A DNA stretch of 46,231 nucleotides, taken from an uncultured Bacilli bacterium. GTDB lineage: Bacteria; Bacillota_I; Bacilli_A; RF39; UBA660. Where the stretch lies: the NCBI GenBank assembly GCA_944358855.1, contig CALVSC010000003.1, positions 1 through 46,231 on the forward strand, read 5' to 3'. Position numbers and translations under genes: made by a program. A model generated the notes under the pieces. The model was not told the DNA's origin and ran no database searches. It was given only the letters and a program-made list of their open reading frames with translations. The stretch's first letter is position 1. The number at the start of each line of letters is the position of its first letter. Below, one piece after another: positions 18,456-41,474 of the stretch.

Positions 18456-18484
18456 TTGTCATTTAAAAAAAAAAACGATACAAT
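18456..18484 (+). promoter_or_regulatory. Sigma A promoter of the first fibre operon
   Basis: TTGTCA, 17 bases (mostly A), then TACAAT. It is the main candidate for driving the two surface-protein genes beginning at 18559. The leader is about 70 bases. Confidence 0.75.
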
Positions 18485-18558
18485 AAATGTGACATAGTAG
18501 GAAAGGGAGCATAGTTAGAGTGATGTACTAGAAAATAATAAAACAAGTGGTGATTAAA

Positions 18559-19257
18559 ATGGCAATAAATACAGTAAATGTAGAAGCACAAAAGGTCTAC
18601 AGAAAAAAACTATTCTCTAGACTAATAAAAATAGCTGTTCTACTATTGATTATTATTTTATCCATTGTTTATTTATTTTTGTATATCGTCTACGATGGTG
18701 GAAGATTTACTGTTACCTTGGATAGAAACTTGTCAAATAGAAAGAACATATTTTTATCAGAGGATGGTAAATTAAAATCTAAAACTAGACAATTATCAGC
18801 AGATACAATTGATTATATGGATAACATTTCAATAAAATGGCTTCCAGAAAACATTGATCAAGAAGCAACAGGTGCTCATAATGGTGACAACTATATTGCT
18901 TATACATTCTATGTGGTAAATGCGGGAAAAGAAAAAGTTCATTACTGGTATGAAGTAGATGTGGACGATACAGTAAAGAATGTCGATGAAGCAATTAGAA
19001 TTATGATTTACAAAAATGGAAAACCTACAGTCTATGCCAAGAAAAATAAGGTTACAAAAAAGGCGGAACCTGGTACAAAGAAATTTGTATCCAAAGAAAT
19101 TGCGGTACTAGAGCAAAGAAAAAATATGAAACCTGGTGCCAAAGACCGATACACCATAGTAATATGGATTGAGGGCGATGATCCAGAGTGCAAAAATGAC
19201 TTGCTTGGCGGAGAAATTAAAATGCATATGGACATCACAGAAGAACATATAGCTTAA
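18559..19257 (+). CDS. Membrane-anchored TasA/camelysin-like surface protein
   Basis: A 232-residue protein with a basic N terminus, one transmembrane helix at about residues 22-46 and an extracytoplasmic beta-rich domain. The C-terminal segment WIEGDDPECKNDLLGGEIK is shared in pattern with the next gene (WVEGQDVDCEDYASGGDLK), so the two are related. No obvious cleavage site follows the helix, so it may stay membrane-anchored and act as a base or linker subunit. I chose ATG 18559 because GGTGATTAAA precedes it. It is co-transcribed with the likely major subunit 16 bases downstream. The role in fibre assembly is inference from context. Confidence 0.6.
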   Translation: MAINTVNVEAQKVYRKKLFSRLIKIAVLLLIIILSIVYLFLYIVYDGGRFTVTLDRNLSNRKNIFLSEDGKLKSKTRQLSADTIDYMDNISIKWLPENIDQEATGAHNGDNYIAYTFYVVNAGKEKVHYWYEVDVDDTVKNVDEAIRIMIYKNGKPTVYAKKNKVTKKAEPGTKKFVSKEIAVLEQRKNMKPGAKDRYTIVIWIEGDDPECKNDLLGGEIKMHMDITEEHIA

Positions 19258-19273
19258 TTAAGGAGTGTAAAAT

Positions 19274-20308
19274 ATGAAAAACGAAGAGAAAAACAAAAAG
19301 AAAAGAAGAAAAATATTTTTATCATTATTACTAATTTTGTTTATTGGTGTTATATTAACTGCATCAACCTATACATGGTTCACTGCCAATAGACAAGTAA
19401 CAGTAGATACTTTAGACGTTAACGTATCTACATCAGCAGGTTTACAAATTTCTGTAGACGCTATGGATTGGAAGACAATCGTTACCAAGGATGATATTAT
19501 TGGAGCAAGTGCTACATATAGAGCAGCAACTAACCAAGTACCATCAGGACAAACTAACCCTGTATCAACAGCAGGAACAGTGGATGCTGGAACAGGATTC
19601 TTAAATATGTATCTTGGTACATTAGCAGATACTGATGCATCAGGGCAATTAAAATTAACTGCAACAAAATCAACAGAAACAAACACAACTGATTCTGGAG
19701 AATTTATTGCATTCGATTTATTCTTCAATGTTACAGAAGAACAAACTCTATATTTAACATCTGCATCTAACGTTACAGGTGGAGATACAGGAGCAGGTGA
19801 AACTGATTCTAAAATTCAATACGCATCACGTGTTGCTATGTTACCACAAGGACATGTTGAAAACGTATCTCAAGTTTCAACTATTCAAGCAGCAAAAGCA
19901 ACAGATGCAACAGGTTTAGTTATCTGGGAACCAAATGCTGATATCCATACTGCAACAGGTGTTACCAATGCTGCACTTTATAGCCAAACAGTAAAAGCCG
20001 GAGCAGGAAATGCACCAGTAGCATATTATGGACTTAAAGATGTAATCAGTGCCCCTGGTGTTGACTTTACCTCAACTGATGGAACATATTTCCAACAAGT
20101 TCAAGCTCCAGTATTAAAAACAACAAACTCAACTGGTATTCCAGAAGATAGTTATCTTGAAGTATTACATCTTGAAAGAGGTGTTACAAAAGTAAGATTC
20201 TACATGTGGGTAGAAGGACAAGACGTAGACTGTGAAGACTATGCATCAGGTGGAGATTTAAAATACAACTTAGTATTTAGTATTGATCCACAAGCAAATG
20301 GAGCATAA
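19274..20308 (+). CDS. SipW-dependent-type surface protein, probable major fibre subunit
   Basis: A 344-residue protein with a Lys-rich start, a hydrophobic signal at about residues 13-33, and then the TYTWFTANRQVTVDTLDVNV motif typical of SipW-processed TasA/camelysin-type proteins. The mature part is rich in Ala, Thr, Gly and Ser, low in Lys, beta-strand-like, and ends with the WVEGQDVDC..GGDLK signature. Codons look different from those of neighbouring genes (more GCT, GTT, CTT, ACT), as expected for a highly expressed structural gene. AAGGAG precedes the ATG. A hairpin with a short T tract follows, which may limit transcription of the downstream genes relative to this one. Its job as major subunit is inferred. 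Confidence 0.65.
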   Translation: MKNEEKNKKKRRKIFLSLLLILFIGVILTASTYTWFTANRQVTVDTLDVNVSTSAGLQISVDAMDWKTIVTKDDIIGASATYRAATNQVPSGQTNPVSTAGTVDAGTGFLNMYLGTLADTDASGQLKLTATKSTETNTTDSGEFIAFDLFFNVTEEQTLYLTSASNVTGGDTGAGETDSKIQYASRVAMLPQGHVENVSQVSTIQAAKATDATGLVIWEPNADIHTATGVTNAALYSQTVKAGAGNAPVAYYGLKDVISAPGVDFTSTDGTYFQQVQAPVLKTTNSTGIPEDSYLEVLHLERGVTKVRFYMWVEGQDVDCEDYASGGDLKYNLVFSIDPQANGA

Positions 20309-20354
20309 TAAAAAATAAAATGAATATGATCAAGTTGTTGGTCATGAAATAAAT

Positions 20355-20378
20355 AGGCCTTCCAAAAGAAGGCCTTTT
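20355..20378 (+). terminator. Hairpin with short T tract (attenuating terminator)
   Basis: Stem AGGCCTTC/GAAGGCCT, loop CAAAA, followed by only TTT then AAAA. The GC-rich stem is strong but the U tract is short, so partial read-through into the genes at 20396 and 20490 is plausible. Confidence 0.65.
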
Positions 20379-20395
20379 AAAATATAGGAGGGTTT

Positions 20396-20497
20396 ATGGA
20401 ACAAGCAGAAGAATTATTAAAACTATATGGAGAAATAGAAAAACATATAAGATACTTAGAGGATAATAAAATAAGTGAGGATGAAACAAATGAATAA
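20396..20497 (+). CDS. 33-residue small ORF, coupled to the next gene
   Basis: A small ORF starting MEQAEELLKLYGEIEKH, with 33 codons plus stop. It has an AGGAGGG ribosome site three bases upstream of the ATG, and its end overlaps the start of the next gene (ATGAATAA, 8 bases). It is acidic and helix-forming with a heptad-like Leu/Ile pattern. The strong site and coupled overlap suggest it is translated, either as a small partner of the coiled-coil protein that follows or as a leader that couples translation. No family recognised. Confidence 0.6.
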   Translation: MEQAEELLKLYGEIEKHIRYLEDNKISEDETNE

Positions 20498-22142
20498 AGA
20501 ACAACTAGAACAAATAAGAAAAGAAATAGAAACAAATCAAAATCATATTGATAATTTTCCTCTAGAAACGGAAACCGGCACCAAAAAGATGAAAGAAAAA
20601 TTTCATAAAAACGCTGTAAAAGAAAGAAATCTTTATATAGAAAAAGAAATACCTAAATTTAAAGAATATCAAAGACAAGTATATATTGAATTAGATAAAT
20701 ATAAAAAATCTATTTTTCCTGTAGATAAAAAAGAAGAATATGAAAAAGAAAATACATCGATGCTAGAACTATTAAAAATAGTACCATTTATAAAAAAAGA
20801 AGTTGCTTTAGAAGTAAAAATTGCAATCGCTCATGTCTTTTATCAATTATCAAAAGAAACAGAATCTTCATTAGATGTAATCAACGATAGTATATTAGAA
20901 TTTTTAAATATATTTGAAAAAGCAAACATCACTTTAACAGTAGAAGATTTTACTTATAGTCCTTTTGTTAATACTTATATGAAAGCATTTTTAGCAAACA
21001 AAAATAGTGAAAACTTCGATAATGAAATGCAAGAAACATTTAAAGAAGTATACTGGGAATGTCCAGAACTTATTATGCATATTAAACATAATTTGAAAGA
21101 AATTGTTAAAAAGAATTATCAAAAACTACAAGAATATTGCAACTCATTAGAAAACGAATTATTAAATAGTGTATCTTTAACAAAAGACAATATGGAAAGA
21201 ACATATCAAGAAAGACAACATGACTTAGAAGATAGAATGAATAAAGATGAATTTGCGAATTTACAAAAATTCTTAGGTAAAAGTCGTAATATCGATGATT
21301 ATACAGTAGGGGCACCATTACGTAGTAAGAGTTTTAACCAACTAGTAATAAAAGAAACATATGCTGAATTATCTGATGATGAGAAAAAAGATTTTGATAG
21401 AGAAACTATTAACTTAAGTCGTGATTTAAATGTATTAAAAGAATACTATAACTATGAAAGTATTATAAAAGATATGATTGCTCGTTTTAAGAAAAAAGAC
21501 GAATCAAAGACGAAGTATGAAGCTAAAGAAAAGGAAATTATGGCTGAAGAAAAAGCAAGAGCTAAATTATATAAAGATTATCTTAGAGCAACAGGTATAG
21601 GCTTTTTAGCGAGACCAAATAATACAAAAGCCTTAGAATTAAAAACAAAAATAAAAGAACAAATTAATAAACTAGATAACTTATATAAAGAATTAGATGA
21701 TTTAGAAATTGATGTAAATATTGGAAAATATTTAAATGAAGGAAGTAGTGTATATGACTTCTTAGTAACTAGTTTAAGTTCTTATAATTATATTGAAAAA
21801 ACACTAGTAGAAAAGTTCCAGGATGTAGATGTAGACTTTGATTTAAGCAACTACGTAAGAAGATACATGAAATTTATATTTAATCCAAACGTAGAATTTC
21901 TTCATAAAATAACAGCCCTTCTAGATTATGATATTGCTAAGATAGTATCTGAAAAATATGCTCTATTAGGAATAAATATAACAAGTGAAGAAATTAGTGC
22001 AGACACAATAGATACTGCAATTCAAACAGTAGGAGTTGTTGCATTAATTAATAATATTAAAGCATCTAATATGACAATAGAAGAAATGAAATTAATATGT
22101 GATATTGATAAAATAGATTACACCCCAGAAGAAGTATTATAG
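20490..22142 (+). CDS. Large helical coiled-coil protein of unknown family
   Basis: A 550-residue soluble protein, very rich in Lys, Glu and Leu, with long predicted coiled-coil stretches (about residues 1-70, 220-280 and 330-430). There is no signal peptide or membrane helix, so it should be cytoplasmic. I do not recognise a domain. I chose ATG 20490 because AGTGAGG lies nine bases upstream and the small ORF overlaps here; earlier in-frame starts overlap the ribosome site. It lies between the major fibre-subunit gene and the signal peptidase/giant protein operon, which suggests a cytoplasmic scaffold or chaperone in the same system. It ends at a terminator. Confidence 0.6.
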   Translation: MNKEQLEQIRKEIETNQNHIDNFPLETETGTKKMKEKFHKNAVKERNLYIEKEIPKFKEYQRQVYIELDKYKKSIFPVDKKEEYEKENTSMLELLKIVPFIKKEVALEVKIAIAHVFYQLSKETESSLDVINDSILEFLNIFEKANITLTVEDFTYSPFVNTYMKAFLANKNSENFDNEMQETFKEVYWECPELIMHIKHNLKEIVKKNYQKLQEYCNSLENELLNSVSLTKDNMERTYQERQHDLEDRMNKDEFANLQKFLGKSRNIDDYTVGAPLRSKSFNQLVIKETYAELSDDEKKDFDRETINLSRDLNVLKEYYNYESIIKDMIARFKKKDESKTKYEAKEKEIMAEEKARAKLYKDYLRATGIGFLARPNNTKALELKTKIKEQINKLDNLYKELDDLEIDVNIGKYLNEGSSVYDFLVTSLSSYNYIEKTLVEKFQDVDVDFDLSNYVRRYMKFIFNPNVEFLHKITALLDYDIAKIVSEKYALLGINITSEEISADTIDTAIQTVGVVALINNIKASNMTIEEMKLICDIDKIDYTPEEVL

Positions 22143-22233: not shown

Positions 22234-22269
22234 AAAGTGTAAAAGAATAAAGATGGCGTGGTGAAATAA

Positions 22270-23523
22270 ATGAGTACAACAAAAAAAGTAATAAGATCCA
22301 TTGGTTATTTATTTGTTGGTATGCTTGTAGCATTATGTGTATATACATTCATTGTGACTGATGTAATGAAAAAAGACTATGCAAATGTCTTTGGATATAC
22401 CTATTTTGTTGTTGCAACAGGTTCGATGTCTGGAACAATAGAAGTTAATGATGTTGTAATTGTTAAAATTGGAGAAGAAGCCAATATTAATGACATCATA
22501 ACCTACAAAACAGATGATGGAGAATTTATCACTCACCGTGTAGTAAAGAAGATTGATAATCAAATTATTACACAAGGGGATGTAAACAACACAGAAGATG
22601 AACCTATTTCTAAGGAGGATATTGTTGGTAAAGTAACCATGGTAATATCTCCAAGTTTTGTCTTAAAACTAATTGCTGTATTATTAATTATCTTTATCTT
22701 ACTTGCATTCTTAAACTTCGATAAGATATTTAAAAAGATAATTGTAGGAGAAGAAAATATTCCTAAGAAAAAGAAAGAAACTGTACCAGAAGAACTTTTT
22801 TCCACACATCCTGTGAAAAAAGAAGAAAAATCTACTGGTAATACAGTAAATATACCAATTAGCGAAGTATTAAAAATACAAAAAGATCAAGAAAAAGAAG
22901 AACAAGAAGATGAAATTGAAGTATTAGAAGTAGAAGACATCATTGATATTGATGACAATAACATCGTAAGAAAAGAAAGAAACACAGCGAAAGAAAAAGA
23001 AAAAGAACTACTAGAACAAGTAGTAAATCTACTAAGAATTAAAAACGATACGTTAACAATTACAAAAATGAATAAAAGATGGTTAACAAAATATCAATAC
23101 GTATATAAACTAGCCCAAATACTAACAATTGGTGATAATAAAGAACTAGAAGAGACAATAATGCATCCTACATTTAAAGAAATATATGACTATGACCTAG
23201 AAAAAGCTGGCTTATATGAAAATCTAAGAAATAAAATATATGAAATGCCTATATATGTATTCTTACGAATATTAACATTTGCGATTTTATATAATGATCA
23301 AACATTCTTTGATGGAGTATACAAAATATTAAAATATAAAGTACAAATAGATAGTGAAAATAAATTTAAAGAAATTAAGAAGAATGATACTTATGCAAAA
23401 AAACAACTAAAATCACTAATTACCTTTATGGAAAAAATATCTATAAAATACGACAATAAAAAAGTATTTGAACTAGATAGAATAGAACGTTTTGTAAAAT
23501 TAAAAAATTATGTAAATCATTAA
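22270..23523 (+). CDS. sipW: SipW/ER-type signal peptidase I with a long cytoplasmic extension
   Basis: A 417-residue protein. Residues 1-165 form a complete archaeal/ER-type signal peptidase: an N-terminal membrane helix, VVATGSMSGTIEVNDVV with catalytic Ser52, FITHRVV with His89 (in place of the Lys of ordinary bacterial enzymes), the GDVNNTED segment with the acid residue, and a second membrane helix at about 137-158. This class processes TasA-like proteins. The remaining 250 residues form an acidic/Lys linker and an all-helical cytoplasmic domain that I do not recognise; SipW enzymes normally end soon after the second helix. The extension might dock onto the helical or AAA+ proteins of the locus. 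The giant surface protein gene follows after 13 bases, implying co-expression. Confidence 0.8.
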   Translation: MSTTKKVIRSIGYLFVGMLVALCVYTFIVTDVMKKDYANVFGYTYFVVATGSMSGTIEVNDVVIVKIGEEANINDIITYKTDDGEFITHRVVKKIDNQIITQGDVNNTEDEPISKEDIVGKVTMVISPSFVLKLIAVLLIIFILLAFLNFDKIFKKIIVGEENIPKKKKETVPEELFSTHPVKKEEKSTGNTVNIPISEVLKIQKDQEKEEQEDEIEVLEVEDIIDIDDNNIVRKERNTAKEKEKELLEQVVNLLRIKNDTLTITKMNKRWLTKYQYVYKLAQILTIGDNKELEETIMHPTFKEIYDYDLEKAGLYENLRNKIYEMPIYVFLRILTFAILYNDQTFFDGVYKILKYKVQIDSENKFKEIKKNDTYAKKQLKSLITFMEKISIKYDNKKVFELDRIERFVKLKNYVNH

Positions 23524-23536: not shown

Positions 23537-26500
23537 GTGGTGAAAAATCTTGTAGTAAAGAAAACAGCAATTTTTAAGATTTTCATGGCATTTCTTGTCG
23601 CAATTGCCTCTTTTTTTATCTACAACCTATTTACCGCAACCCTAACTTTAAGTGACATAGATATAGAAGCCTGGGATGGAGTAGAAATAGCTACTTCTTT
23701 TTCTGGTGGAAATGGAACAGAAGAAAACCCTTACCAAATTGCAAATGGAAGTGAATTAGCTTATTTAAAACAAATAGTAGAAGAACAAAGTATAGATAAC
23801 CTAAAAGATAAATACTTTGTATTAACCAAAGATATTGATTTAGGAAACAATACTTGGAGTGGTATAGGAAATATTGTAAACAATGAAAAAATAGCTTTTT
23901 CCGGACACTTTGATGGTGCTGGATATACGATTAAAAACTTTAAACTAGATACTCCTAAAACAATAAACAATATAGAGTATTATGGTTTATTTCTATTTAT
24001 AAACGATGCGGATATAAGAAACTTAAATATATATAATGCAATTATTACTACAACAATATCTAGTAATCAAACAAGAATTTCTCTTTTAGCAACCTCTGTT
24101 GAAAACTCTACAATATCTAATATTGCAATTCAAGAATCTAAAATGGATTTAACAAATACTACAGTAACTAACAGCAATGAAATAGCTGGAGTTATCAATG
24201 AGGTGGGAGAAACTTCTACATTATTAAATATATATAGTCAAATGGAAATAACAGATACGAATGGTAATTCATTTGGTAATGTAATTGGAGTATTAAATGG
24301 AGAGGCAAAAAATATTATCAGTCAAACGACTTATAAAAACTTTACACCATTATCTGTTGCGGATATTAAAGAAATAAAAGAAACTGCCAAAGTAGAAAAC
24401 AGTTATAAGTTAGTAGCCAATAATAATGAAGTGAAAATTACATCAGAAGATATGACTATAGAAAATTTAATATTAAATTTAAATGAAAAAATAGAAACAG
24501 ATAAATATTCTTGGACATTAGAAGGAACACATTTAAAAATAAGTAGAACGGAAGAGTTAATTAAGACAACTTCACAAGTAACAGAAGAAGTACCAACGCT
24601 ATTTAATTTTGGAAAAAGTGCAGCTATACCTCTTCATGATACAGCAATAACAACAGATACGGTTTATATTAATGATTTAGAAAGCGATTATAATTATTAT
24701 CATGGACTTAACTTTACATCATCTTCTACAGGAACTCTTCCAACTGGTAATAATCAAGGAATTTATACGGATAGTAACCTTGCAAAGGTCTATATAAAAT
24801 ATAGTGGAGAAGATATTTCAGATAGTAGTATAGTAGGACATATCAGTTTAGATGAACAACAAAGCGCAATGGTATATTATAAATACTATCCAGTGGATAA
24901 TGGATATATCAATGTTGAATTAATTGATAATCCATTTGCTGATAGACCAAACAATAAGGCATTTAATGGCTGGATAACCGATTATCCAGGTGTAGAAATT
25001 ACTTATGATGCCGACACTTATACAAGATATGCTAAAATACCGGTAACCTCAACAAATGGAATACCAGACATAGTAAATATTACATTCTATACTTCATGGA
25101 CGCAAGCAAGCACTTATGAATTAACTTCAAGTAACGAATGGAGTACAGCGTTTTCAAATTTAAATAATTCAGGTATGATAGCTAATGTAAATACAATTAA
25201 TATTTATGAAGATTGTAGCGATTTATATGTTCAAGGAAGTATTGGATTCTTTGAAAATTATCCAAGTGGAGCAGTTGACCAATATGGAGATAGAGTAAGC
25301 GGAAGGTGCTGGGGTACCTGTACATACTACATTGCTGCGGATGCCACCTACGATGCAACTCAAAATTATTATGAATTTAATGGAAACAGAATGCAGTCAT
25401 ACCAACCACAAATTGTTGATACAAGCCACGTAACAGGAGTACCTATCGGTTCATCTGCTGCTGGATTATATGAACAAGTAACATTAAGTAGAAATCAAAG
25501 TATTGCCGGCTATTACGACGAACAAGGACAATATCAAACTAGCGGAACTTGTAATAGTTATGGTGGTTGTACATACTATAATATGCTTCAGTTTTACGAT
25601 GAAAATGGTAATGAAAATGTCGTTACAGAAGACAGTAATTATTATTACTTAGTAACAAGAGATACCAATATTATTGTTTTAGAAACATCAGCCAATCCTA
25701 ACTGGAACAGTAATAAACCATTTACGTTAACTGGAATAAATAATGGTACAAAATATAACGGAAGTATTTCACTAAGTAATAACTATATAGATGCTTTAGC
25801 AGATACTAGAATTGAATATATTGGAATTACAAATAATGATAGTAGAACAACAAATGATGACACTACGCCAGCATCAGATTATTCATCAGGATACATCTAT
25901 GGAAATTGGTATAATTTAAAAATTGGTCGTGGAATTACAGGAGCAAGCACTAGATATGTAAATGCCATGGCAGTAATAGCTGGTAACAATGATTCAACAG
26001 GAAGTAGAAATAATTTAACGGAATATAAATTGATTATTGAATCAGGCGTATATAATATGATATCTCTTACGAACGGAAGTGCTGGAAGTGGATGGTTCGG
26101 TGGAGGAGATGATACTTTATATGTAGATGGAACGGGAATATATGGAAGCGATTATGACCGCGTCAGCAACAATAACGACAATCTAGATATTACATTCTGT
26201 GCCTCAGGAAGCTGGGGAGATAATGTTTATTCTTCATCAGAACAAACAGGTGTTGCACTTCATACAAATATAAAAAGTGGAGGATTCGGAACGCAAGAAT
26301 TAGGTTATTCAACTGGAGTTTATATCGGTGGACGTGGCGGAGGAGAACATTATGCCGCAAGAGATGCCATTATAGAAGGTGGAGATATCTATAACCTAAT
26401 AGGTGGACCATTAACGGCAACAAATAGAAGCAATATAAATGATACTTACATCAATATTAAAGGTGGAACCATTGATATGGTAATTGGAGGAGCTGGTGCC

Positions 26501-31741: not shown

Positions 31742-31774
31742 TAAATAGAGCAAAATATAGAAATGGGTGTTGGA

Positions 31775-32469: not shown

Positions 32470-32494
32470 AATAATATGGGAGGGTGTGAGAAAC

Positions 32495-33070
32495 TTGAGA
32501 AAATATAAAAATGTAATTATTATCTTAGTAATCATACTTGCTTGTTTTGCTTATTTAAAAACAAAGACGACATATACAGCTTATGAAAGTGAAACAGAAG
32601 CAAATGTAAATAGTGAAATAGCAGACTGGAAAATAAAAGTAAATAACACCCTTGTAACATCAGATATACAACAAGAAATAGCAATTGATACAATTGACTG
32701 GGATGAAAACCATACCAAAGAAGGAACAATATCTCCTGGAACATCAGGTGTAATTACAATCACCATAGACCCTACAACAACGCAAGTGGCTTTCGACTAT
32801 TCTTTAGAAATTATAGATCAGACAGTAAATCCTGATAAAACACTAACAATTACCAAAGTAGAAAGTTCTTTAAATAACTTAGTACAAGAAGGAAATATCT
32901 ACCGAGGAACAATGTCATTAAAAGATATAAAAGATAATAAAAAAGATGAAATAAAACTATATGCAATCTGGGATGATCATGGACAAGATATAGAAGTAGA
33001 CCCTACAGAAATAACTGAACCAAGTGATTTACTAGAAGTAAACTTTAAAGCATCACAAAAACAAAAATAG
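32495..33070 (+). CDS. SipW-dependent-type small surface protein
   Basis: A 191-residue protein with a short basic start, a hydrophobic helix (about residues 6-22), then TTYTAYESETEANVNSEIADWKIKVN, the post-signal motif seen in several proteins of this locus. It has a beta-rich mature domain with an LYAIWDD motif near the C terminus. That motif and SEIADWKIKVN recur in the minus-strand gene at 39833-40450 (YVVWDD, DIASWNIKVN), so the two are paralogues. I chose TTG 32495 because GGGAGGG lies ten bases upstream; the in-frame GTG at 32486 overlaps that site. It heads a three-gene operon of related exported proteins. Confidence 0.6.
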   Translation: MRKYKNVIIILVIILACFAYLKTKTTYTAYESETEANVNSEIADWKIKVNNTLVTSDIQQEIAIDTIDWDENHTKEGTISPGTSGVITITIDPTTTQVAFDYSLEIIDQTVNPDKTLTITKVESSLNNLVQEGNIYRGTMSLKDIKDNKKDEIKLYAIWDDHGQDIEVDPTEITEPSDLLEVNFKASQKQK

Positions 33071-33081: not shown

Positions 33082-33711
33082 ATGGCTAAGAAATTAAAAA
33101 TATTAAATAAATTAAAAAAAGAAAATATACCATATTTTGAATATAAAAAACGTTTCTTATTAGTAGTAATAGGTCTATTCTTATTAATTGTCTTGGCCAT
33201 ATATTTACTTCAAATAGCTTATGCATCCTATCAATCACAAGCAAAATTAGTAGCTGATATCAATAAAGCTATTTATTTAATAAAGCCTAGTGGAATGGAT
33301 TTTAATATAGATTTAAATAAAATTGAACCATCTTCAAAGCCATATATATATAAATTTAGTATTTCAAACTTTGAAGGAAACAAACACAGTGAAGTAGATA
33401 TTGAATATCAACTAAATATAAGAACAACCACCAATCTTCCTTTAACATTTGAACTTTATAGAAATGAAAACTATGATGATGCAGGAGCCACTAATCTATT
33501 TAATCAAGCAACGACCACCCAGGATGTAGATGGTGCTTGGTATAATTACTTAGAAGGAAAAGAAAAACACCAATTTCTATACTCAGAAGATGAAACAGAT
33601 ATCTATACTTTAGTAGTATATTTCCCAGAAAACCACAAACTAGCAACCGATTATGCGGACAATATTGAAAATATAGAAGTAGAAATAATATCAAACCAAA
33701 TAGTAGATTAG
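33082..33711 (+). CDS. SipW-dependent-type surface protein
   Basis: A 209-residue protein. A basic 26-residue cytoplasmic start is followed by a membrane helix at about 27-46 and then IAYASYQSQAKLVADINKAIYLI, which has the usual aromatic-Ala-x-aromatic junction of TasA/camelysin-type exports. The mature region is about 160 residues, acidic and beta-rich, without Cys. AGGAGGTGA lies ahead of the ATG. It sits between two other exported proteins (11 and 10 bases apart), so all three should be made together, perhaps as minor fibre subunits or accessory tips. I found no close named family. Confidence 0.6.
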   Translation: MAKKLKILNKLKKENIPYFEYKKRFLLVVIGLFLLIVLAIYLLQIAYASYQSQAKLVADINKAIYLIKPSGMDFNIDLNKIEPSSKPYIYKFSISNFEGNKHSEVDIEYQLNIRTTTNLPLTFELYRNENYDDAGATNLFNQATTTQDVDGAWYNYLEGKEKHQFLYSEDETDIYTLVVYFPENHKLATDYADNIENIEVEIISNQIVD

Positions 33712-33721: not shown

Positions 33722-34654
33722 ATGGATTTTGTAAGAGAACATAAAAGATTAAGCACGATTATTCTTATTGTAGCCATATTATTACTTCTATTTGGAACAA
33801 CATTTGCTAGATATGTTTATAATGTTATTCATAATCATATTTTAGAAAGTAATGAGTTTTACTTTAATAGTAGTGTTCTAAGTATGGATGGAAGTGAATT
33901 TAAAATAAATAACTGGGATGGAGTAAATCCTTATACTTTAACCATCGATGTCAACAACAAGAAAAATACTTTAAAATCAACGAAAAGTGATATTTCATAT
34001 GATATTGAAGTAAGTTGTCCTAGTTCTGTTACTTGTACTTTAAATAAAACAAGTGGAGTAATTTATGAAGCATCTGGAACAGATTCTTATCAAATTACAG
34101 TAACGCCAAAAGATACGTTTCATGAAGGAGATGAAGTAGTCGTAGAAACAAAAGCAACTTCAACCTCTCCTTATGTAAAAGAATTAAAAGGTACTTATAC
34201 AATAGGAATTGAAACCCTGGATTTTACTTATAATATTGAAGACAACGTAGGTGATAAATTCTTTACTTTAAATCTAACGAACACATCAACATATTATGAA
34301 GTAACAAAAGCTTTTTCTGGATACCAAGTCGGAGACCATTTAACAATAGAAGAATATAACGCTTTAACAGATGACCAAAAGGAAAATTGCTTTTCTGCAG
34401 AAGTAACTTTATCCTTTGTACCAAAGGATATCTACCTAGACATGACAAATAGAAAATATCTAGATAGAGACGCTAATAGTGAAACTCTAGAAGTAGTAAA
34501 TAATCATAATTATGTAAGTGGTTTTAGTTTTAAAATGGATGCTAGTTCTAGTGAAAAAATAATATTTTATAAAAAAGATCCAAAAGAAGATTATACATAT
34601 CCCATAACAAATGAAAACTCGGTAATAGATGTAAATGTAAACATAGCAGAATAG
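33722..34654 (+). CDS. SipW-dependent-type surface protein, larger
   Basis: A 310-residue protein with an N-terminal signal/anchor helix at about residues 12-28, ending TTFARYVYNVI, the same kind of junction as its neighbours. The mature part appears to hold two beta-sandwich modules: about residues 55-165 (with Cys in SCPSSVTCTL) and 165-310. GAGGTGAT precedes the ATG. It is the last gene of its operon. The Cys pair might form a disulfide in the exported state. It may be an accessory component of the surface structure; the function is inferred from neighbours only. Confidence 0.6.
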   Translation: MDFVREHKRLSTIILIVAILLLLFGTTFARYVYNVIHNHILESNEFYFNSSVLSMDGSEFKINNWDGVNPYTLTIDVNNKKNTLKSTKSDISYDIEVSCPSSVTCTLNKTSGVIYEASGTDSYQITVTPKDTFHEGDEVVVETKATSTSPYVKELKGTYTIGIETLDFTYNIEDNVGDKFFTLNLTNTSTYYEVTKAFSGYQVGDHLTIEEYNALTDDQKENCFSAEVTLSFVPKDIYLDMTNRKYLDRDANSETLEVVNNHNYVSGFSFKMDASSSEKIIFYKKDPKEDYTYPITNENSVIDVNVNIAE

Positions 34655-34715: not shown

Positions 34716-35780
34716 GTGAGTAAAAATTTAATTACAAGATATTTAAACTATAAAAAGAAACGCTTAGTATCATACGCCTTATCTATGTATCAAGATAATA
34801 CTTATTTAGACTATGAAATAGAATGTTTAAATCGCTATGCTAATAATTATATTGAAGTATATTATCATAAGAAATTTGAAACACTAGATAATAAAACACC
34901 AGTAGATAATAAAGCGATAGAACAAGAACAAGAAGGAATAAGATTAGAATTACTTGATAAATTAAATGTAAGAGAAATTTTAGAAAGTAACGCAAGTTTT
35001 ATTAGAAAAAAAGAAATTATTAACATCACTAAAAAATATATGGAAGTAGTAATTGCTTTTGATAGCAAACTAGTAACACCAGAAAATGTAGAAGAAATAA
35101 TTACAAAACTAATAACTAGTATTAGTCAAAAGTTACCAGTATTACAAAATGCTATTCCCAACTGGATAAAAAAGTGGAAAGAGACTGAAAAAACGATAAA
35201 GAAATTAATAGTTGAAAAACAAAACTTTATCTTACGCCAAGTACCATATGATGAAGATTTATGGGAAGTAACTCTACTAACAAGAGTAAAACAGATCAAT
35301 ATTTATAAAAGAAATTTAATAGAAAGAGTAAATAGTGAAAGTGAAGTAGAAATTGAAAAAATAAAACTAGTTGCTTTAATATTAAATCAAATTATATTAA
35401 GAGATATTGTATTAAAAGAAAAAATAGGGAATTATATTATTCCAATATCAGAAAATGCTTGGTCTAAAAAAGAAGAATTAAAAGAACTATTTGATTTATT
35501 AGACGATAGTATTTTAAAAGACCATGTGTTTATTGGAATTAGTTATAATGAATTATTAGGAAGTAAAAAACTATTAGAGAAAAAACAAGCTGGATATCAT
35601 TTCGCTTGTTATCAAGATTTAACCTACATCTTAGATATACCAACAAAAGTAGATACGATTGATTCATCTAACTTATTTAGTTATTTGATGATTACAGGAT
35701 ATAAAGCAAAAGATTTACCAATAATAGAAAAACAAGAACCGACAATAATGAAAAAAATAATGATTAGTAAGGAAGTATAG
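34716..35780 (+). CDS. Helical cytoplasmic protein of unknown family, first gene of the ATPase operon
   Basis: A 354-residue soluble protein rich in Lys, Glu, Ile and Leu and almost wholly helical in appearance. There is no signal, no membrane helix and no recognisable motif. The start is GTG 34716 with AAGGAGGGTG upstream; the overlapping ATG two bases earlier runs at once into TGA. It ends one base before the AAA+ ATPase gene, so the two are tightly coupled and probably interact. Together with the 550-residue coiled-coil protein it may form the cytoplasmic side of the machinery. No homology between the two was obvious to me. Confidence 0.6.
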   Translation: MSKNLITRYLNYKKKRLVSYALSMYQDNTYLDYEIECLNRYANNYIEVYYHKKFETLDNKTPVDNKAIEQEQEGIRLELLDKLNVREILESNASFIRKKEIINITKKYMEVVIAFDSKLVTPENVEEIITKLITSISQKLPVLQNAIPNWIKKWKETEKTIKKLIVEKQNFILRQVPYDEDLWEVTLLTRVKQINIYKRNLIERVNSESEVEIEKIKLVALILNQIILRDIVLKEKIGNYIIPISENAWSKKEELKELFDLLDDSILKDHVFIGISYNELLGSKKLLEKKQAGYHFACYQDLTYILDIPTKVDTIDSSNLFSYLMITGYKAKDLPIIEKQEPTIMKKIMISKEV

Positions 35781-35781: not shown

Positions 35782-37332
35782 ATGGATACATTTATCAGAT
35801 TTTTATATGAATTTATGTCCGTCTTTTTTAACGGACTGTTTACAATATTTAAAGGTATTGCATCCGGCTTCATGCAGATGTTTGATTTTAGTGAATACCT
35901 ATACATTATTCAATTTTATAAAAATGACTTTAAAATGTCAGAATGGATATTAGTTATTGTCGCAATTATTGTTTTAGCTATTCTATTAGCTTTAATTATC
36001 CTAGTATTATATTTAATAGTAAGAAAATATATTAGATTTAGAAAAACTCTAGTAGAGCAAGAATCTATGTTAACGGAAATAGGGGAATTGAATCAAAAAG
36101 TTGCTAGTCTTGTAAAAGAAAAAGAAGATATTTTAGCAATGAAAGTGTCACAACTTGGATTAAAGCCAGACGAAGCGAATGTTATTAGTGAAGAAGAAAC
36201 AGGAGAAAAGCCAAAAGAAGGAGAAGATCCACAACTTGATGAAGATGACAGTAAATATCGTTTCTCTAAATTACATGCCATTGATTTACAGTATAGAGAT
36301 TATAAAGTTCAAAACTACAATAATACATTTACGCTAGAAGAATTAGTAGATAACTTTAGAAACTTCGCCGCTTCCAAGCTAAAACTATATTACACAACTA
36401 AAATGATACGTTTATTTATTTCATCATTATCCGCAACGAAACTTGTAATCCTACAAGGTATCTCTGGTACTGGTAAGACTTCCCTTGCATATGCCTGGGG
36501 TAAATTTATTAAACGAGATGCAATCATTGCCTCTGTTCAACCATCTTGGAGAGACCGTACAGAATTATTTGGATACTTCAACGAGTTTACCAAGAAGTTT
36601 AATGAAACAGACGTATTAAAAGCATTATATGTTGCTGGATATACGGATGATGTCTATGTAACTGTACTAGATGAAATGAACATTGCCCGTGTCGAATATT
36701 ATTTCGCCGAAATGTTATCTATTCTAGAAATGCCTAGTAGAGATGAATGGATTATCGAACTTGTACCAAGTAGTTGGGATACCGACCCTAAAAAATTAAA
36801 AAATGGTAAATTACAAATACCTGGAAACATGTGGTATATTGGTACTATCAACAACGATGACTCTACTTTCGCTGTAACAGATAAGGTATACGACCGTGCT
36901 ATGCCAATCGATATCAACGATAAAGGACAACCATTTGAACCAGTGGATACAGAAGCAATGAACATTAATAGTTCTTACCTAGAAGGATTATTTGCTGATG
37001 CTAAACAAAAACATCCTCTATCAGAAGATATGGAACAAAAAATATCAGAAATGGATGACTACGTTATTAAACATTTCCGTATCGCCTTTGGTAACCGTAT
37101 TGTTAAACAGATGAGAGACTTTGTCGCAACCTATGTAGAATGTGGTGGAACAGAAGTAGATGGTGTTGATTATTATATCGCAAGAAAGATATTAAGAAAG
37201 TTTGAACAATTAAACTTAGCCTATATCAGAGATGAAATTGATGGCTTTATTGATTTCTTAAATAAAGAATTTGGAAAAGAAAACTTTAATGAATGTAAAG
37301 ACTACTTATTAAGACTTAAGAAATTAGTTTAA
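35782..37332 (+). CDS. Membrane-anchored McrB-type AAA+ ATPase
   Basis: A 516-residue protein. Residues 1-35: hydrophobic/amphipathic start; 55-80: a clear membrane helix; 88-118: coiled coil; then an acidic linker and an AAA+ domain from about 195. Walker A is GISGTGKT (226-233), Walker B is VLDEMN (Asp297, Glu298), sensor 1 is IGTINNDDST, and DRAM supplies the likely arginine finger. The DEMN motif and NARVEYYFAE-type continuation (here NIARVEYYFAE) are McrB signatures. Classical McrB is a GTPase of a DNA restriction system and is soluble with a DNA-binding N terminus; here that is replaced by a membrane anchor. The next gene is its DUF2357 (McrC-type) partner. It probably forms a hexameric remodeller on the inner membrane face. 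Confidence 0.85.
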   Translation: MDTFIRFLYEFMSVFFNGLFTIFKGIASGFMQMFDFSEYLYIIQFYKNDFKMSEWILVIVAIIVLAILLALIILVLYLIVRKYIRFRKTLVEQESMLTEIGELNQKVASLVKEKEDILAMKVSQLGLKPDEANVISEEETGEKPKEGEDPQLDEDDSKYRFSKLHAIDLQYRDYKVQNYNNTFTLEELVDNFRNFAASKLKLYYTTKMIRLFISSLSATKLVILQGISGTGKTSLAYAWGKFIKRDAIIASVQPSWRDRTELFGYFNEFTKKFNETDVLKALYVAGYTDDVYVTVLDEMNIARVEYYFAEMLSILEMPSRDEWIIELVPSSWDTDPKKLKNGKLQIPGNMWYIGTINNDDSTFAVTDKVYDRAMPIDINDKGQPFEPVDTEAMNINSSYLEGLFADAKQKHPLSEDMEQKISEMDDYVIKHFRIAFGNRIVKQMRDFVATYVECGGTEVDGVDYYIARKILRKFEQLNLAYIRDEIDGFIDFLNKEFGKENFNECKDYLLRLKKLV

Positions 37333-37350: not shown

Positions 37351-38478
37351 ATGGATAAAGAAGAACAAGAAGTATTAAATGAATCGTTAAATCAAGATGA
37401 GTTCTTCTCAAATATGAATTCACTTTTATCTGTAAAAACAGACTATGAAAAAAGAGAATATGATTATGAGTGGATTGATATCATAGACGAAACTCTTCCT
37501 TATCTTGATAACATTTTACGTAATCCTAAAAGATTTATTATTAATGAAGAAGAAGTAGTAAAAGTAGAAAAATCCAAAAAAGTAACAGTAGAAAGTATTA
37601 TTCACTTATCACAACATACAAACTATATTCAAAAAATAGAAGATAATGGGGATGTAAAACCCTCTAAAATTCTAAATATCAACAAAGAAGAAAGTTTGGA
37701 TACTTATGAAAATAGATTTATTTATACATTAATTAATAATGTTAGAAACTTCTATGAAAAAAGGCGTGCAGAAACAGGGGACTATTCTTATTTTAAAGAC
37801 AAAAAACAATTAAAATTTGAAGCAAACACAGTAATAGATACAGAAGAAGTTCAAATATCATTAGACATTTCTTCTAAGAATGAAGCAAAACTAGATACTA
37901 AGAAAAACGCTGGGGAAGAAAGTGTTGCTGACAGATTAAAAAGAATAAAAGTACAACTAGATGGTTTCACAATGTCAGAATTAATGCAAACACTAGCTAA
38001 ATTACATGTACCACCAGTTCGTTCACCTATAAGAAAAACAAACGTAATTTTAAAGAATCCAAACTTCCAAAAAGCAGAAGCTTTATGGAACTACATGCAA
38101 ATGTATGAAGAAAAAGATATTAGTGAAAACGATCATCAAGAATACTATGATACAGGTTCTCTAAAAAAAGAATACAATCAAGCATTTTTAAGTCTATATA
38201 CGGCAAATAAAATGCTAGATCATGAAAATAAGACAATGTCTGAAAATAAATTACTTTCTAAAACGATGAATCGTCTAATCGAAAACATCTTAGAAAGTAA
38301 TTATGAAATAACAGAACAAGAAATAAAAGACTTATTCAATAAACAATTAAAACTAATTAAAAAAGCAAATGAAGCGAAAAGAAGAAGAATTAAAAAACTT
38401 CTTTTAGATAAACTAAATGATGAAAACAAATCATATATAGAAGATTGGAAAATACTAGAGGAGACGGTAATATGCTAA
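37351..38478 (+). CDS. DUF2357 (McrC-type) partner without nuclease domain
   Basis: A 375-residue soluble protein with DUF2357 hallmarks: TYENRFIYTLINNV (Tyr119-Arg122 core), and VPPVRSPIRKTNVILKNPNFQKAEALW. DUF2357 proteins pair with McrB-type ATPases, and many also carry a PD-(D/E)XK nuclease. None is visible here: the C-terminal third is Lys-rich helix (KRRRIKKLLLDKLNDENK), without the spaced D-ExK pattern. It would therefore regulate or engage the ATPase rather than cut DNA. AAAGGAAGGG precedes the ATG. Its end overlaps the start of a signal peptidase gene by seven bases, tying the McrBC-like pair to protein export. Confidence 0.75.
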   Translation: MDKEEQEVLNESLNQDEFFSNMNSLLSVKTDYEKREYDYEWIDIIDETLPYLDNILRNPKRFIINEEEVVKVEKSKKVTVESIIHLSQHTNYIQKIEDNGDVKPSKILNINKEESLDTYENRFIYTLINNVRNFYEKRRAETGDYSYFKDKKQLKFEANTVIDTEEVQISLDISSKNEAKLDTKKNAGEESVADRLKRIKVQLDGFTMSELMQTLAKLHVPPVRSPIRKTNVILKNPNFQKAEALWNYMQMYEEKDISENDHQEYYDTGSLKKEYNQAFLSLYTANKMLDHENKTMSENKLLSKTMNRLIENILESNYEITEQEIKDLFNKQLKLIKKANEAKRRRIKKLLLDKLNDENKSYIEDWKILEETVIC

Positions 38479-39086
38479 GAAAAGTATTAGATAGTAAGTA
38501 TTTTCAAATCCCATATAAAATAATAAAAACAATAATATTTATCATGTTAATTGTTTATTTAGCCTTTATTTTATGTCAAAGATTATCTGGAAATAAAAGT
38601 ATATGTGGATATCGTCTATTTGCAGTCGCAACAGGAAGTATGGTTCCAGATTATCAAATAAATGATGTGCTAGCGATTAAAAAAGTATCTCATAATGAAT
38701 TAAAAGTAGGGGACGATATTACATATCTAGGAACAAAACAAGATGTAAATGGTCGAATTGTTACCCATAGAATTATTAAAATAGTAAATAAAGATGGAAA
38801 AAAACAATATATAACGAAAGGTATTAATAATGAGGTAGAAGATCCCGTCATTGAAGATGGACAAATATATGGTAAAGTAGTTGGGAAAGTACCAATTATT
38901 AGTGAAATAAATCACATAGTAAAAAATCAATATGGCTTTTTCTTTTTAATATTTTTGCCAATTGTTTTAGTTATCTTTTTAGAAATAGCTGATACTGTAA
39001 CAGATATAAAGAAGGATAAACTAGAATATGAAAATGAGAAAAAAGAGGAGGAGAAGGATGAAGACAAATCGGAGGAAATTATCTGA
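38472..39086 (+). CDS. sipW: SipW/ER-type signal peptidase I
   Basis: A 204-residue protein with a membrane helix (about 18-36), VATGSMVPDYQINDVLAI with catalytic Ser56, IVTHRIIKI with His99, a NNEVEDP segment with the likely acid residue, a second membrane helix at about 155-175 and a short acidic/Lys tail. This is the compact SipW form, without the long extension of the enzyme at 22270. GGAGACGGT precedes ATG 38472, which lies inside the DUF2357 gene. Its own end overlaps the following fibre-type gene by 29 bases, so enzyme and probable substrate are translationally coupled, as in the sipW-tasA arrangement. Confidence 0.85.
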   Translation: MLRKVLDSKYFQIPYKIIKTIIFIMLIVYLAFILCQRLSGNKSICGYRLFAVATGSMVPDYQINDVLAIKKVSHNELKVGDDITYLGTKQDVNGRIVTHRIIKIVNKDGKKQYITKGINNEVEDPVIEDGQIYGKVVGKVPIISEINHIVKNQYGFFFLIFLPIVLVIFLEIADTVTDIKKDKLEYENEKKEEEKDEDKSEEII

Positions 39087-39813
39087 CAATAAAGAACAAA
39101 ATGATAAAAGAAGAATTCGTAAACGAATCATCATTCGAAGTCTACTACTTGTTGCCTTTCTCTTAGCAATTAACACCTTTGCGTGGTTTACTTATATTTC
39201 AAGAGCAGGAGTTACCTTAAATGCAAGTGTAGTAAACTGGGATGTAACATTCCTAGAAGAAACGAATGTAATTAGAGAAATTGTTATTAATGTAAAAGAT
39301 ATGAAACCAGGAATGTTACCAGTAGAAAGAAAAGTAAGTATTAAAAATGGTGGAGAAGTAGATGCGAAAATTACTTATGTTTTAAAAACAGTAACATTAT
39401 TAGGGCAAGATATAAAACTAGATAAATCAACAGATGAAATCCATCAAAGTCTAGCCAATGATTATCCATTTAAATTAGTATTAAACTTAGACAAAACAAT
39501 AGTAAAACCATTTGATAGTGGAAACTTTGATATCTCTATTAACTGGGACTATGAAGCAGATGAATTTTATAAATTAAATGATTTTTATACTTATGATGCT
39601 GGAGTATATTATTACACATTAAATAATGGAACATATCAAATAGATAACACGGTAACGGAACAAAACTTTAAAGAAAAAGTATCTCAAGGACTATACTTAG
39701 AAAAAGATGATGCTGATAGTTTCTGGGGATATGCTTGTGGACAATATGAAAACTCTACAGGAAAACCATGTTTAAAACTAGAATTTGAATTAAATGCTAC
39801 ACAAGTAGAATAA
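39058..39813 (+). CDS. SipW-dependent-type surface protein
   Basis: A 251-residue protein with a strongly basic 27-residue start, a hydrophobic signal (about 28-40), then NTFAWFTYISRAGVTLNASVVNWDVTF, closely matching the junction and first strands of its counterparts. Its mature domain is acidic and beta-rich, with a YACGQYENSTGKPCLKLEFEL end containing two Cys. GAGGAGAAGG precedes ATG 39058; an earlier ATG lacks a site. It is the last gene of the ATPase operon and the likely substrate of the signal peptidase it overlaps. A bidirectional terminator follows. Confidence 0.7.
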   Translation: MKTNRRKLSDNKEQNDKRRIRKRIIIRSLLLVAFLLAINTFAWFTYISRAGVTLNASVVNWDVTFLEETNVIREIVINVKDMKPGMLPVERKVSIKNGGEVDAKITYVLKTVTLLGQDIKLDKSTDEIHQSLANDYPFKLVLNLDKTIVKPFDSGNFDISINWDYEADEFYKLNDFYTYDAGVYYYTLNNGTYQIDNTVTEQNFKEKVSQGLYLEKDDADSFWGYACGQYENSTGKPCLKLEFELNATQVE

Positions 39814-39840
39814 AAGCACTTTCAAAGAAGTGCTATTTTA
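39814..39840. terminator. Bidirectional terminator between convergent surface genes
   Basis: Stem AGCACTT/AAGTGCT with loop TCAAAG, A-rich on the left and ATTTTATTTG on the right. Both convergent genes end at its edges. Confidence 0.75.
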
Positions 39841-40450
39841 TTTGTTCAAAATGTAATGTAACTTTCATTAGTGCTTTACTACTATTATCAATACCAACAT
39901 CAGTATCTTGTGAATTATCCATAGTACCAGTTTCATCATCCCATACTACATAAATACGAAAGACGCTACTAGCTTTATTTTTAGGTATCTGTTGTACAAT
40001 ACCTGTATCTGCAACATACTCTCGTCTATCCTCAACCGGTACCATATCATTACTAGTAGGGTTATACTCGAATGTTTCAGTCTTTAAATCAGAAACACTA
40101 GAATTATCCGCTACCTCTGAACGAATAGTAACAGTAAAAGGAACATCTACATTACTAGCATCAATAGAAATAGTATAATAACCTTCTACTCCAGGAGCAA
40201 TTACACCTTCATTATGATATAAATCCTCTGGAAAAGTAGGGGTAATTGTCGTTGTTAAAGTCTTTTTGTTCATAATATCTTCGCCATTTACTTTAATATT
40301 CCAACTAGCAATATCTCCTTCGACATTACCACTAACACCACGTCTATATTTAGCATAAGAAGATTGGAATAAATAAATTAAACAAACACTAACGATAATG
40401 ACAAATAAAAGAATAAACCAAATATCTTTCTTTTTACTTTCTTCTTTCAT
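39833..40450 (-). CDS. SipW-dependent-type surface protein (minus strand)
   Basis: A 205-residue protein with a signal/anchor helix at about residues 8-26, then SSYAKYRRGVSGNVEGDIASWNIKVN and a beta-rich domain ending with YVVWDDE and a final strand. It is a paralogue of the protein at 32495-33070, with which it shares the post-signal motif and the WDD segment. I chose 40450 as start because AAGGTAGGTG precedes it. It is the only gene of the locus on the minus strand and has its own promoter, so its expression can be set separately. Its stop codon lies in the shared terminator. Confidence 0.65.
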   Translation of the reverse strand: MKEESKKKDIWFILLFVIIVSVCLIYLFQSSYAKYRRGVSGNVEGDIASWNIKVNGEDIMNKKTLTTTITPTFPEDLYHNEGVIAPGVEGYYTISIDASNVDVPFTVTIRSEVADNSSVSDLKTETFEYNPTSNDMVPVEDRREYVADTGIVQQIPKNKASSVFRIYVVWDDETGTMDNSQDTDVGIDNSSKALMKVTLHFEQIK

Positions 40451-40473
40451 AGGTACACCTACCTTATAGATAA

Positions 40474-40482
40474 ATTTTACCA
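40474..40482 (-). promoter_or_regulatory. Secondary extended -10 for the minus-strand surface gene
   Basis: Reads TGGTAAAAT on the minus strand, 24 bases before the start codon. It may act in addition to the stronger promoter at 40522-40550. Confidence 0.4.
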
Positions 40483-40521
40483 TAAAATAAAGGTAAATAA
40501 AATAAAAACTTATGATTAGTA

Positions 40522-40550
40522 TATATATAATTTATCATAATAAGTGTCAA
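40522..40550 (-). promoter_or_regulatory. Sigma A promoter for the minus-strand surface gene
   Basis: On the minus strand: TTGACA (40550-40545), 17 bases, TATATA (40527-40522). Consensus -35 with ideal spacing; it would give a leader of about 65 bases. Confidence 0.65.
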
Positions 40551-40594
40551 CTTATAATACAAGAATGAAAAATATTTATAAAATAGCAAAAATA

Positions 40595-40603
40595 TGATAT
40601 ATT
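40595..40603 (+). promoter_or_regulatory. Extended -10 promoter for the lipoprotein gene
   Basis: TGATATATT lies about 20 bases before the ATG at 40624; TTTATA 17 bases upstream is a weak -35. The surrounding sequence is very AT-rich. Confidence 0.45.
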
Positions 40604-40623
40604 CATAATAAGGATGTGACGAT

Positions 40624-41460
40624 ATGAAAAAGACAATACTTTTATTAGGAGTAATAATATCAACACTACTATTAACAGGGTGTGATGGAAATGTAACAAG
40701 AGATATTAGACATGCTGGTTTTGCTCTATCTGGTAATGAATTTGCTTGTTCTACATTAATGCCAATTGATGATGAAACCCCTGCCCAAGAGACAATTATG
40801 TATTCAGACGGATCTTTTGCTATTACCGAATCAGGAAGACTATATGAACTATCTTTACAACAACCATATAGTAATGAAGAAAACTGTCGTAAAATATCAT
40901 TCTCTGTAGATATCATAGCCTATATGGATAATAAAATATTAAAAGGAATTGATAACAAATATTACTATGCACCTGGATCAAGTAATCAACCAGCATTAAG
41001 TGAAGTAACTACAGCGGATAGTGAATATCAGATCTATAACTTATTACTTAGTAGTCCAACAGTAAAAAAAGTGATGACAGTAAATACTGGACAAGGAATA
41101 TATTACGTATTAGAAGATGATGGAACAGTATATGAATATACCTTAGTACAACAAGATAATGCTTCTCCATATCAAATACAATCTAAAATACCAGTATACT
41201 CTAGTTCAGAATATGGAAATATTATAGACTTTAACTATGCAGGAGATAGTACAACAACCTATATTAAAACAGAAAACGAAATCTATCGTATGAAAGCAAC
41301 GAATGAAGAAGAGTGTACAAAATATGCAGATGTTGCTTGCAACTATAAAATGAAAAAAGATGAAACTTTGACAAAGTATTATAAAGAAGAACCAAAGATA
41401 TTATATTATGGACCAAGTATTTTAATTACAACTTATGGAAAAGAGTTTACACCAGCATAG
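40624..41460 (+). CDS. Lipoprotein of unknown function
   Basis: A 278-residue protein with a classical lipoprotein signal: MKK, a hydrophobic stretch, and lipobox LLTGC with the modified Cys at residue 20. The mature part has repeated short strands with Tyr-rich patterns (ESGRLYELSL, DNKYYYAPG, GTVYEYTLVQ, NEIYRMKA), suggestive of a small beta-propeller-like fold. Further Cys are present (FACST, NCRK, ECTKYADVACNY). It would be anchored on the outer membrane-leaflet side. It lies at the edge of the surface-protein locus, and whether it belongs to it is uncertain. A strong terminator overlaps its end. Confidence 0.7.
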   Translation: MKKTILLLGVIISTLLLTGCDGNVTRDIRHAGFALSGNEFACSTLMPIDDETPAQETIMYSDGSFAITESGRLYELSLQQPYSNEENCRKISFSVDIIAYMDNKILKGIDNKYYYAPGSSNQPALSEVTTADSEYQIYNLLLSSPTVKKVMTVNTGQGIYYVLEDDGTVYEYTLVQQDNASPYQIQSKIPVYSSSEYGNIIDFNYAGDSTTTYIKTENEIYRMKATNEEECTKYADVACNYKMKKDETLTKYYKEEPKILYYGPSILITTYGKEFTPA

Positions 41461-41474
41461 TAAACTCTTTTTTT
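41440..41474 (+). terminator. Rho-independent terminator after the lipoprotein gene
   Basis: An 11-bp perfect stem AAAGAGTTTAC/GTAAACTCTTT around the stop codon, followed by TTTT. The final T also form part of the next promoter's -35. Confidence 0.85.

Follow-up and report, generated by a model that had tools for sequence, protein, structure and literature searches.

An McrB-type ATPase and its DUF2357 partner in a conserved gene block with SipW-type signal peptidases and surface proteins in an uncultured Bacilli bacterium

What does an AAA+ ATPase related to the restriction protein McrB do in a row of genes for signal peptidases and exported proteins? The question arises from contig CALVSC010000003.1 (assembly GCA_944358855.1) of an uncultured Bacilli bacterium of the gut (RF39; UBA660), whose 46,231 nucleotides were analysed as a whole and are called the window below. 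It contains a gene block of about 22 kb (18,547–40,483), in which 14 plus-strand genes (18,547–39,813) are followed by the convergent minus-strand gene SubM (Table 1). A preliminary description of positions 18456–41474, made from the letters alone, had listed the gene products of this region, and the gene map and annotation scans recovered every item of that list. All block genes lie inside this range; it also takes in a lipoprotein gene (40624–41460) that is outside the conserved block and adjoins it in close relatives only. We read the block, with a probability of roughly 0.6, as a CoCoPALM-type module for the maturation and assembly of surface proteins, which an McrB-family GTPase would operate from the inner face of the membrane.

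The preliminary description had known of no account of this combination of genes, but the association already had a name. Bell et al. (2024, eLife, PMC11090510) introduced CoCoPALM for a clade of McrB GTPases that carry an NxD motif and are fused to an FtsB-like transmembrane and coiled-coil domain. The main text of that paper gives the class one paragraph and defers its analysis. It names a signal peptidase family among the neighbours, which it considers likely pilus assembly factors, and states that NxD is usually followed by D or E and that the McrC homologue is usually fused to coiled coils. A literature search returned no second paper on CoCoPALM. Judged from its encoded proteins, our locus fits this class: the features tested were present or consistent, namely an NxD McrB protein with a transmembrane and predicted coiled-coil N-terminus, an McrC homologue and signal peptidase neighbours. 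The main text of PMC11090510, against which we judge novelty and whose supplements may list some of these features, has no anchor subunit, SipW-type substrates, Ser-less peptidase paralogue, EAL-like adaptor, peptidase–adaptor fusion or co-occurrence analysis.

The distribution of the block was followed in a sample of 145 genomes of the family, about one per genus, of which 40 carry the ATPase. Neighbourhoods were compared in 24 of these 40 and in 80 loci from metagenome-assembled genomes (MAGs) of named uncultured Bacilli and Clostridia; the two sets may partly overlap. Open reading frames (ORFs) of the relatives were called mechanically, tallies by hidden Markov models (HMMs) undercount fast-evolving subunits, and several gaps are contig ends. 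This comparison, which had been proposed with the preliminary description, found the block conserved, with the common order Sub5-HelB-McrB-DUF2357-SipC-TasA6 followed by a SubM-like gene in reverse. The 80 loci contained DUF2357 in 78 cases, SipC in 74, HelB in 66, a Sub3-type gene in 64 and TasA6 in 63. A peptidase of the SipA or SipC type was present in 78 of them, and in 75 of the 80 it lay no more than three genes from the ATPase.

Co-occurrence gave the same picture. TasA1 was detected in 34 of the 145 family genomes, every one of them ATPase-positive, and in none of the 105 ATPase-negative genomes. The hypergeometric value for TasA1, 2e-27, is not corrected for phylogeny and overstates the case, since the genomes are not independent, although they were sampled at about one per genus. 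DUF2357 was found in 41 genomes, 39 of them with the ATPase; the other two are G128, where the gene lies at a contig edge, and G109, where the match is weak. Strong SipC orthologues were found in about 37 genomes, and only in G128 (contig edge) and G013 without the ATPase. The locus of G013 (L215) harbors SipB- and SipC-like peptidases without an ATPase, which other members of its genus possess, and a natural loss is possible.

In the same-genus genome G309, the whole block is collinear gene by gene. The ratio of nonsynonymous to synonymous substitution rates (dN/dS) ranged from 0.04 to 0.32 across the block genes, which indicates that they are functional and under purifying selection. The lowest values, and thus the strongest constraint, belong to the ATPase (0.04) and TasA1 (0.05), followed by SipA (0.08) and the rest (0.13–0.32). 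The host assembly, a MAG, is estimated to be 74% complete, but the block core recurs in single-contig chromosomes. Since the block is collinear in G309 at these dN/dS values and its core is found in more than 100 loci, we do not regard it as a chance neighbourhood.

One could still propose that the genes have no functional link and are neighbours through vertical descent or travel on an island. Generic SipW-type peptidases occur in 123 of the 145 family genomes, most of which lack the ATPase, so that the two functions are separable and SipW chemistry itself is independent of the ATPase. However, the block order is kept between families at about 50% identity, the anchor subunit TasA1 was absent from all 105 ATPase-negative family genomes, ten loci carry a fusion of peptidase and HelB (see below), and a search for orthologous TasA1 and SipC occurring routinely without the ATPase found no such pattern, the one exception being SipC in G013. 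An absence of any link therefore appears most improbable. Two arrangements that the preliminary description had named as counter-evidence can be judged from the same data: homologues in defence islands were not seen in the compared loci, and the orthologous surface genes did not occur without the ATPase, although generic SipW-type peptidases do. Gene order, strict co-occurrence and gene fusion together support a link between the ATPase pair and the genes for peptidases and surface proteins.

We examined the pair itself, which had been recognized correctly as an McrB-type AAA+ ATPase with a DUF2357 partner. The AAA+ domain is homologous to E. coli McrB, its sole match in the PDB (E 3e-7). The N-terminus displays a strong transmembrane segment (residues 56–74) and a heptad-like stretch (92–128), and no family of specificity (modified-base-binding) domains was found in the protein. 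When this N-terminus was checked for FtsB-type homology, 3 of 20 members gave a weak match, to FtsL only (best E 0.013). The motif N-x-D-[DE] is present in 132 of 133 ATPase homologues, as NNDD in the window and as NNDE, NRDE or NLDE in relatives, and the ATPase is probably a GTPase. An ungapped HMMER alignment to E. coli McrB had offered NxxD as the motif; this reading was rejected, since N-x-D does not vary whereas either D or E can occupy the fourth position. The partner matches PF09823 (44 bits, cut-off 23.3, E 2e-11) and, in profile scans, no nuclease family. Its C-terminal third is poorly conserved, with Y283 as the only invariant residue beyond position 246 of the protein in the alignment, and is mostly helical in the predicted structure (moderate confidence, predicted template modelling score 0.51). 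A fold search with this model gave no usable match, so it is the Pfam match that relates the protein to McrC.

Such relatives raise the possibility of anti-phage defence of the NxD McrBC (CoCoNuT-like) type, in which nucleic acid would be the target of the complex, with the surface proteins as sensors, decoys or a barrier. The ATPase domain matches not only E. coli McrB but also the PADLOC candidate PDC-M26A (E 3e-36), and its patchy presence (40/145) resembles that of defence genes. The main text of PMC11090510 predicts that NxD McrB relatives with a nuclease-less McrC target RNA when HEPN or other nucleases are adjacent. Against this, profile scans of the locus proteins found no nuclease or nucleic-acid-binding family, the DUF2357 protein had no PADLOC match, a membrane anchor stands in place of a DNA-specificity domain, and the neighbouring genes, whose order is kept, encode conserved peptidases and exported proteins. 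Judged by its sequence, the pair has lost both the nuclease and the DNA-specificity domain that mark a restriction system, and a role in defence seems quite unlikely.

The surface-assembly reading involves the peptidases. SipA and SipC are complete SipW/ER-type signal peptidases with Ser and His motifs and two transmembrane segments, as had been described, and the third, SipB, indeed lacks the catalytic Ser. SipC scored 89.2 bits against TIGR02228 (cut-off 51.85). None of the three reached the 190-bit threshold of the SipW equivalog NF046067 (SipC 93.2; SipA 44.1, E 1.7e-11; SipB 31.7, E 1.1e-7). Both motifs are missing in all 79 SipB homologues found, suggesting that the loss of activity is old and that the protein has been kept for another role.

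A direct hint at how peptidase and ATPase could be connected comes from HelB, one of the two soluble helical proteins noticed before. The other, HelA, matches no Pfam family and has homologues in the same blocks of relatives. In ten related loci the separate HelB gene is missing, and SipA, the SipW-type peptidase, instead carries the HelB sequence as its tail (HMM E 1e-35; hhalign profile–profile probability 99.9%, E 3e-37), direct evidence for joint action of adaptor and peptidase. Since this tail follows the second transmembrane segment, it should be cytoplasmic, as the ATPase domain should be too. HelA, the SipA tail of the window and the DUF2357 protein showed no relation to HelB in profile comparison.

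A fusion of this kind is also compatible with regulation or quality control, in which the ATPase and the DUF2357 protein would extract or recycle stalled precursors, or control the peptidase, without driving assembly. HelB adjoins the ATPase gene and joins the peptidase's cytoplasmic tail, and putative Acholeplasma genomes repeatedly have EAL-type regulators next to the ATPase or the anchor subunit. To our knowledge, the tapA-sipW-tasA system of Bacillus has no McrB-type ATPase. Its TasA fibres are described as assembling by donor-strand exchange (PMC9674648), which likewise favors a role other than driving assembly. On the other hand, ATPase and subunits are tightly co-inherited and the ATPase is very strongly constrained, which hints at more than optional control, and we think regulation alone rather unlikely.

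The presumed substrates are the exported proteins. An N-terminal transmembrane segment was found in all seven small proteins (TasA1, Sub2, Sub3, Sub4, Sub5, TasA6 and SubM), and the exported protein of 2,710 amino acids is present as stated. Six proteins had been credited with an aromatic-Ala-x-aromatic junction after the helix. The six junctions exist, with Ala at the second place in four (YASY in Sub4, FARY in Sub5, FAWF in TasA6, YAKY in SubM) and Thr in two (YTWF in Sub2, YTAY in Sub3). The WxEGxDxxC motif in TasA1 and Sub2 and the WDD motif in Sub3 and SubM were found as well. In the TasA6 junction, A, W and Y are invariant in 15 homologues. TasA1 is probably the membrane-anchored base subunit; its relatives are 42–56% identical, with an invariant YxxGxFTVxLD region. 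The giant protein varies widely in length among relatives, and SubM keeps its convergent position in most of them.

Beyond the composition, linkage and fusion seen in the genomes, we infer a hexamer, a nucleotide, a coupling and a polymer as follows. The ATPase would be a membrane-tethered cytoplasmic hexamer, activated by the DUF2357 protein as in McrBC. HelB, as adaptor, would connect this motor with the tail that a SipW-type peptidase extends into the cytoplasm, and turnover of GTP or ATP would gate or drive the release of membrane-held precursors. These precursors, the giant protein together with six subunits of the SipW type, would form a polymer or coat that begins on the uncleaved anchor TasA1. 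SipB may belong to the peptidase complex as a non-catalytic component, similar to the accessory subunits of the eukaryotic signal peptidase complex. The earlier suggestion that the ATPase pair powers or controls export or assembly would agree with such a scheme.

At the class level, the ATPase profile matched in 135 of 395 genomes. Among 20 regions examined, the form of about 515 amino acids with a transmembrane segment usually had TasA1 and SipW-type peptidases as neighbours, and this held for several families. Other forms (450 amino acids in tandem, or 900 amino acids) have other partners, including some large exported proteins. A putative Acholeplasma laidlawii genome contains the core with YAWF junctions (SipW-type signals), a DUF2357-type partner of 593 amino acids with a long charged helical tail, and a GGDEF-EAL protein directly upstream of TasA1 (PF00563 E 7e-53). 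Acholeplasma has no cell wall. A structure made there must therefore be held by the membrane, which fits the uncleaved anchor TasA1. Two further loci of putative Acholeplasma (L220 and L199, second copies) encode McrB, DUF2357, a protein of about 3,000 amino acids, which in L220 has 11 cadherin-like domains, and a GGDEF-EAL membrane protein directly before the ATPase. As side observations, tandem McrB-type ATPase genes flank the DUF2357 gene in L203, L204 and L205, and genes for transglutaminase-like, MBG-repeat or BspA-type leucine-rich proteins lie close by, an architecture that is possibly surface-linked. In L221 (G109) and L222 (G102), HelB-like and DUF2357-like genes are adjacent without an McrB gene, and pseudopilin-like or other membrane proteins lie beside them.

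Several results weigh against the surface-assembly module as we propose it. The second copies L220 and L199 have no recognised signal peptidase, so the peptidase is not universal. The small proteins had been called TasA-like, and this label did not hold beyond a weak similarity: TasA6 scored 21.8 bits against PF12389 (E 1.8e-4), below the gathering threshold of 22.5, with a match in 1 of 15 homologues, and it has no match in the PDB; by that threshold it falls outside the TasA/camelysin family. The likeness of HelB to EAL domains is one of structure. Its AlphaFold model (predicted local distance difference test score 87) found mainly EAL domains among the best Foldseek matches in the PDB, FimX first, with probabilities up to 1.00, a best E of only 0.005 and TM-scores up to 0.46. 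Profiles did not support it, as PF00563 matched 1 of 16 HelB members (E 0.037) and hhalign against EAL was not significant. The EAL-like fold is therefore tentative. Finally, control by cyclic di-GMP is unlikely here because several ATPase-positive genomes have no clear diguanylate cyclase: a GGDEF scan found none in G083, G114 and G123, and in the window's genome a single match in a protein of 681 amino acids, which judging from its size is probably GdpP. Such control through HelB had been considered for the fold and for the putative Acholeplasma neighbours, and is disfavoured.

Compared with known systems, the locus is by its predicted proteins outside the definitions of McrBC restriction, CoCoNuT and TasA/camelysin. 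With E. coli McrBC it shares a homologous AAA+ domain and a DUF2357 region homologous to the N-terminal domain of McrC, but its partner has no PD-(D/E)xK nuclease, a membrane anchor replaces the DNA-specificity domain, and the motif is NxD, not NxxD. CoCoNuT systems likewise have an NxD McrB, an McrC homologue that is sometimes nuclease-less, and coiled coils; here, a scan of the locus proteins found no HEPN or other nuclease family, and surface and peptidase genes are present instead. The tapA-sipW-tasA operon also places a SipW-type peptidase beside small exported proteins with an aromatic/Ala junction, whereas our block has two active-type peptidases and one inactive one, a giant repeat protein, and subunits below the TasA/camelysin threshold. 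EAL regulators of the LapD/FimX type control surface adhesion or pili from inside the cell. HelB, whose predicted fold is closest to this group, differs in its lack of profile support, and several of its host genomes are probably without cyclic di-GMP synthesis.

CoCoPALM was named from a census. The core can now be fixed as adaptor, probable GTPase, nuclease-less activator, peptidase and anchor subunit; the HelB–peptidase fusion predicts which parts touch, a putative dedicated inactive peptidase subunit is identified, and the cultured, wall-less Acholeplasma is indicated as a putative host for testing. If the module works as proposed, a surface structure is powered by a member of a defence family, whereas no energy source was known before for SipW-dependent fibres. 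A bolder version is conceivable but somewhat less than an even bet: a restriction-type McrB GTPase would have been recruited as a membrane motor, acting on signal peptidases and powering the assembly of surface filaments in Bacilli and wall-less mollicutes, with an EAL-like adaptor joining motor and peptidase. This, if true, would be a surface-assembly pathway with its own energy coupling, distinct from sortase, chaperone-usher and type IV pilus systems.

Table 1. Genes of the block and an associated hairpin, in window coordinates
Feature	Coordinates	Strand	Description
TasA1	18547..19257	+	surface subunit, N-terminal transmembrane segment, without SipW-type junction
Sub2	19274..20308	+	exported subunit, YTWF, WVEGQDVDC motif
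HelA	20475..22142	+	soluble helical protein, 555 amino acids
SipA	22270..23523	+	SipW/ER-type signal peptidase, TGSM Ser, THR His, predicted cytoplasmic tail
Giant protein	23537..31669	+	2,710 amino acids, exported, N-terminal transmembrane segment, 12 YGG(G/A/S) motifs
SipB	31763..32422	+	SipW-like pseudo-peptidase without catalytic Ser or His
Sub3	32486..33070	+	exported subunit, YTAY, WDD
Sub4	33082..33711	+	exported subunit, YASY
Sub5	33722..34654	+	exported subunit, FARY
HelB	34716..35780	+	soluble putative adaptor, EAL-like predicted fold, ends 1 bp before ATPase gene
McrB-type AAA+ NTPase	35782..37332	+	N-terminal transmembrane segment and predicted coiled coil, Walker A GISGTGKT, Walker B LDEMN, NNDD
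DUF2357 protein	37351..38478	+	McrC N-terminal-type, without nuclease domain, long C-terminal helix
SipC	38472..39086	+	SipW/ER-type signal peptidase, Ser and His motifs conserved
TasA6	39028..39813	+	exported subunit, FAWF, weak camelysin/TasA similarity
Hairpin	39815..39834		bidirectional terminator-like, between convergent TasA6 and SubM, pattern match only
SubM	39833..40483	-	exported subunit, YAKY, WDD

The start codon of SipC is probably the ATG at 38472; the mechanically called ORF begins at 38445. In G040, of the same genus, the contig starts just before the downstream flank of the block. Upstream, an ORF of 1,040 amino acids (15284–18406) combines a domain of glycosyl hydrolase family 10 (E 1e-24) with one of the PHP type (E 1e-13) and a C-terminal transmembrane segment, and it has no homologue in the same-genus genomes G040 and G309. 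Near the start of the window (370–6456), Sigma-F-like and SpoVAC/SpoVAD/SpoVAE-like genes were picked out by eye in the translations, and from these the host, which has a reduced genome, may be a spore former.

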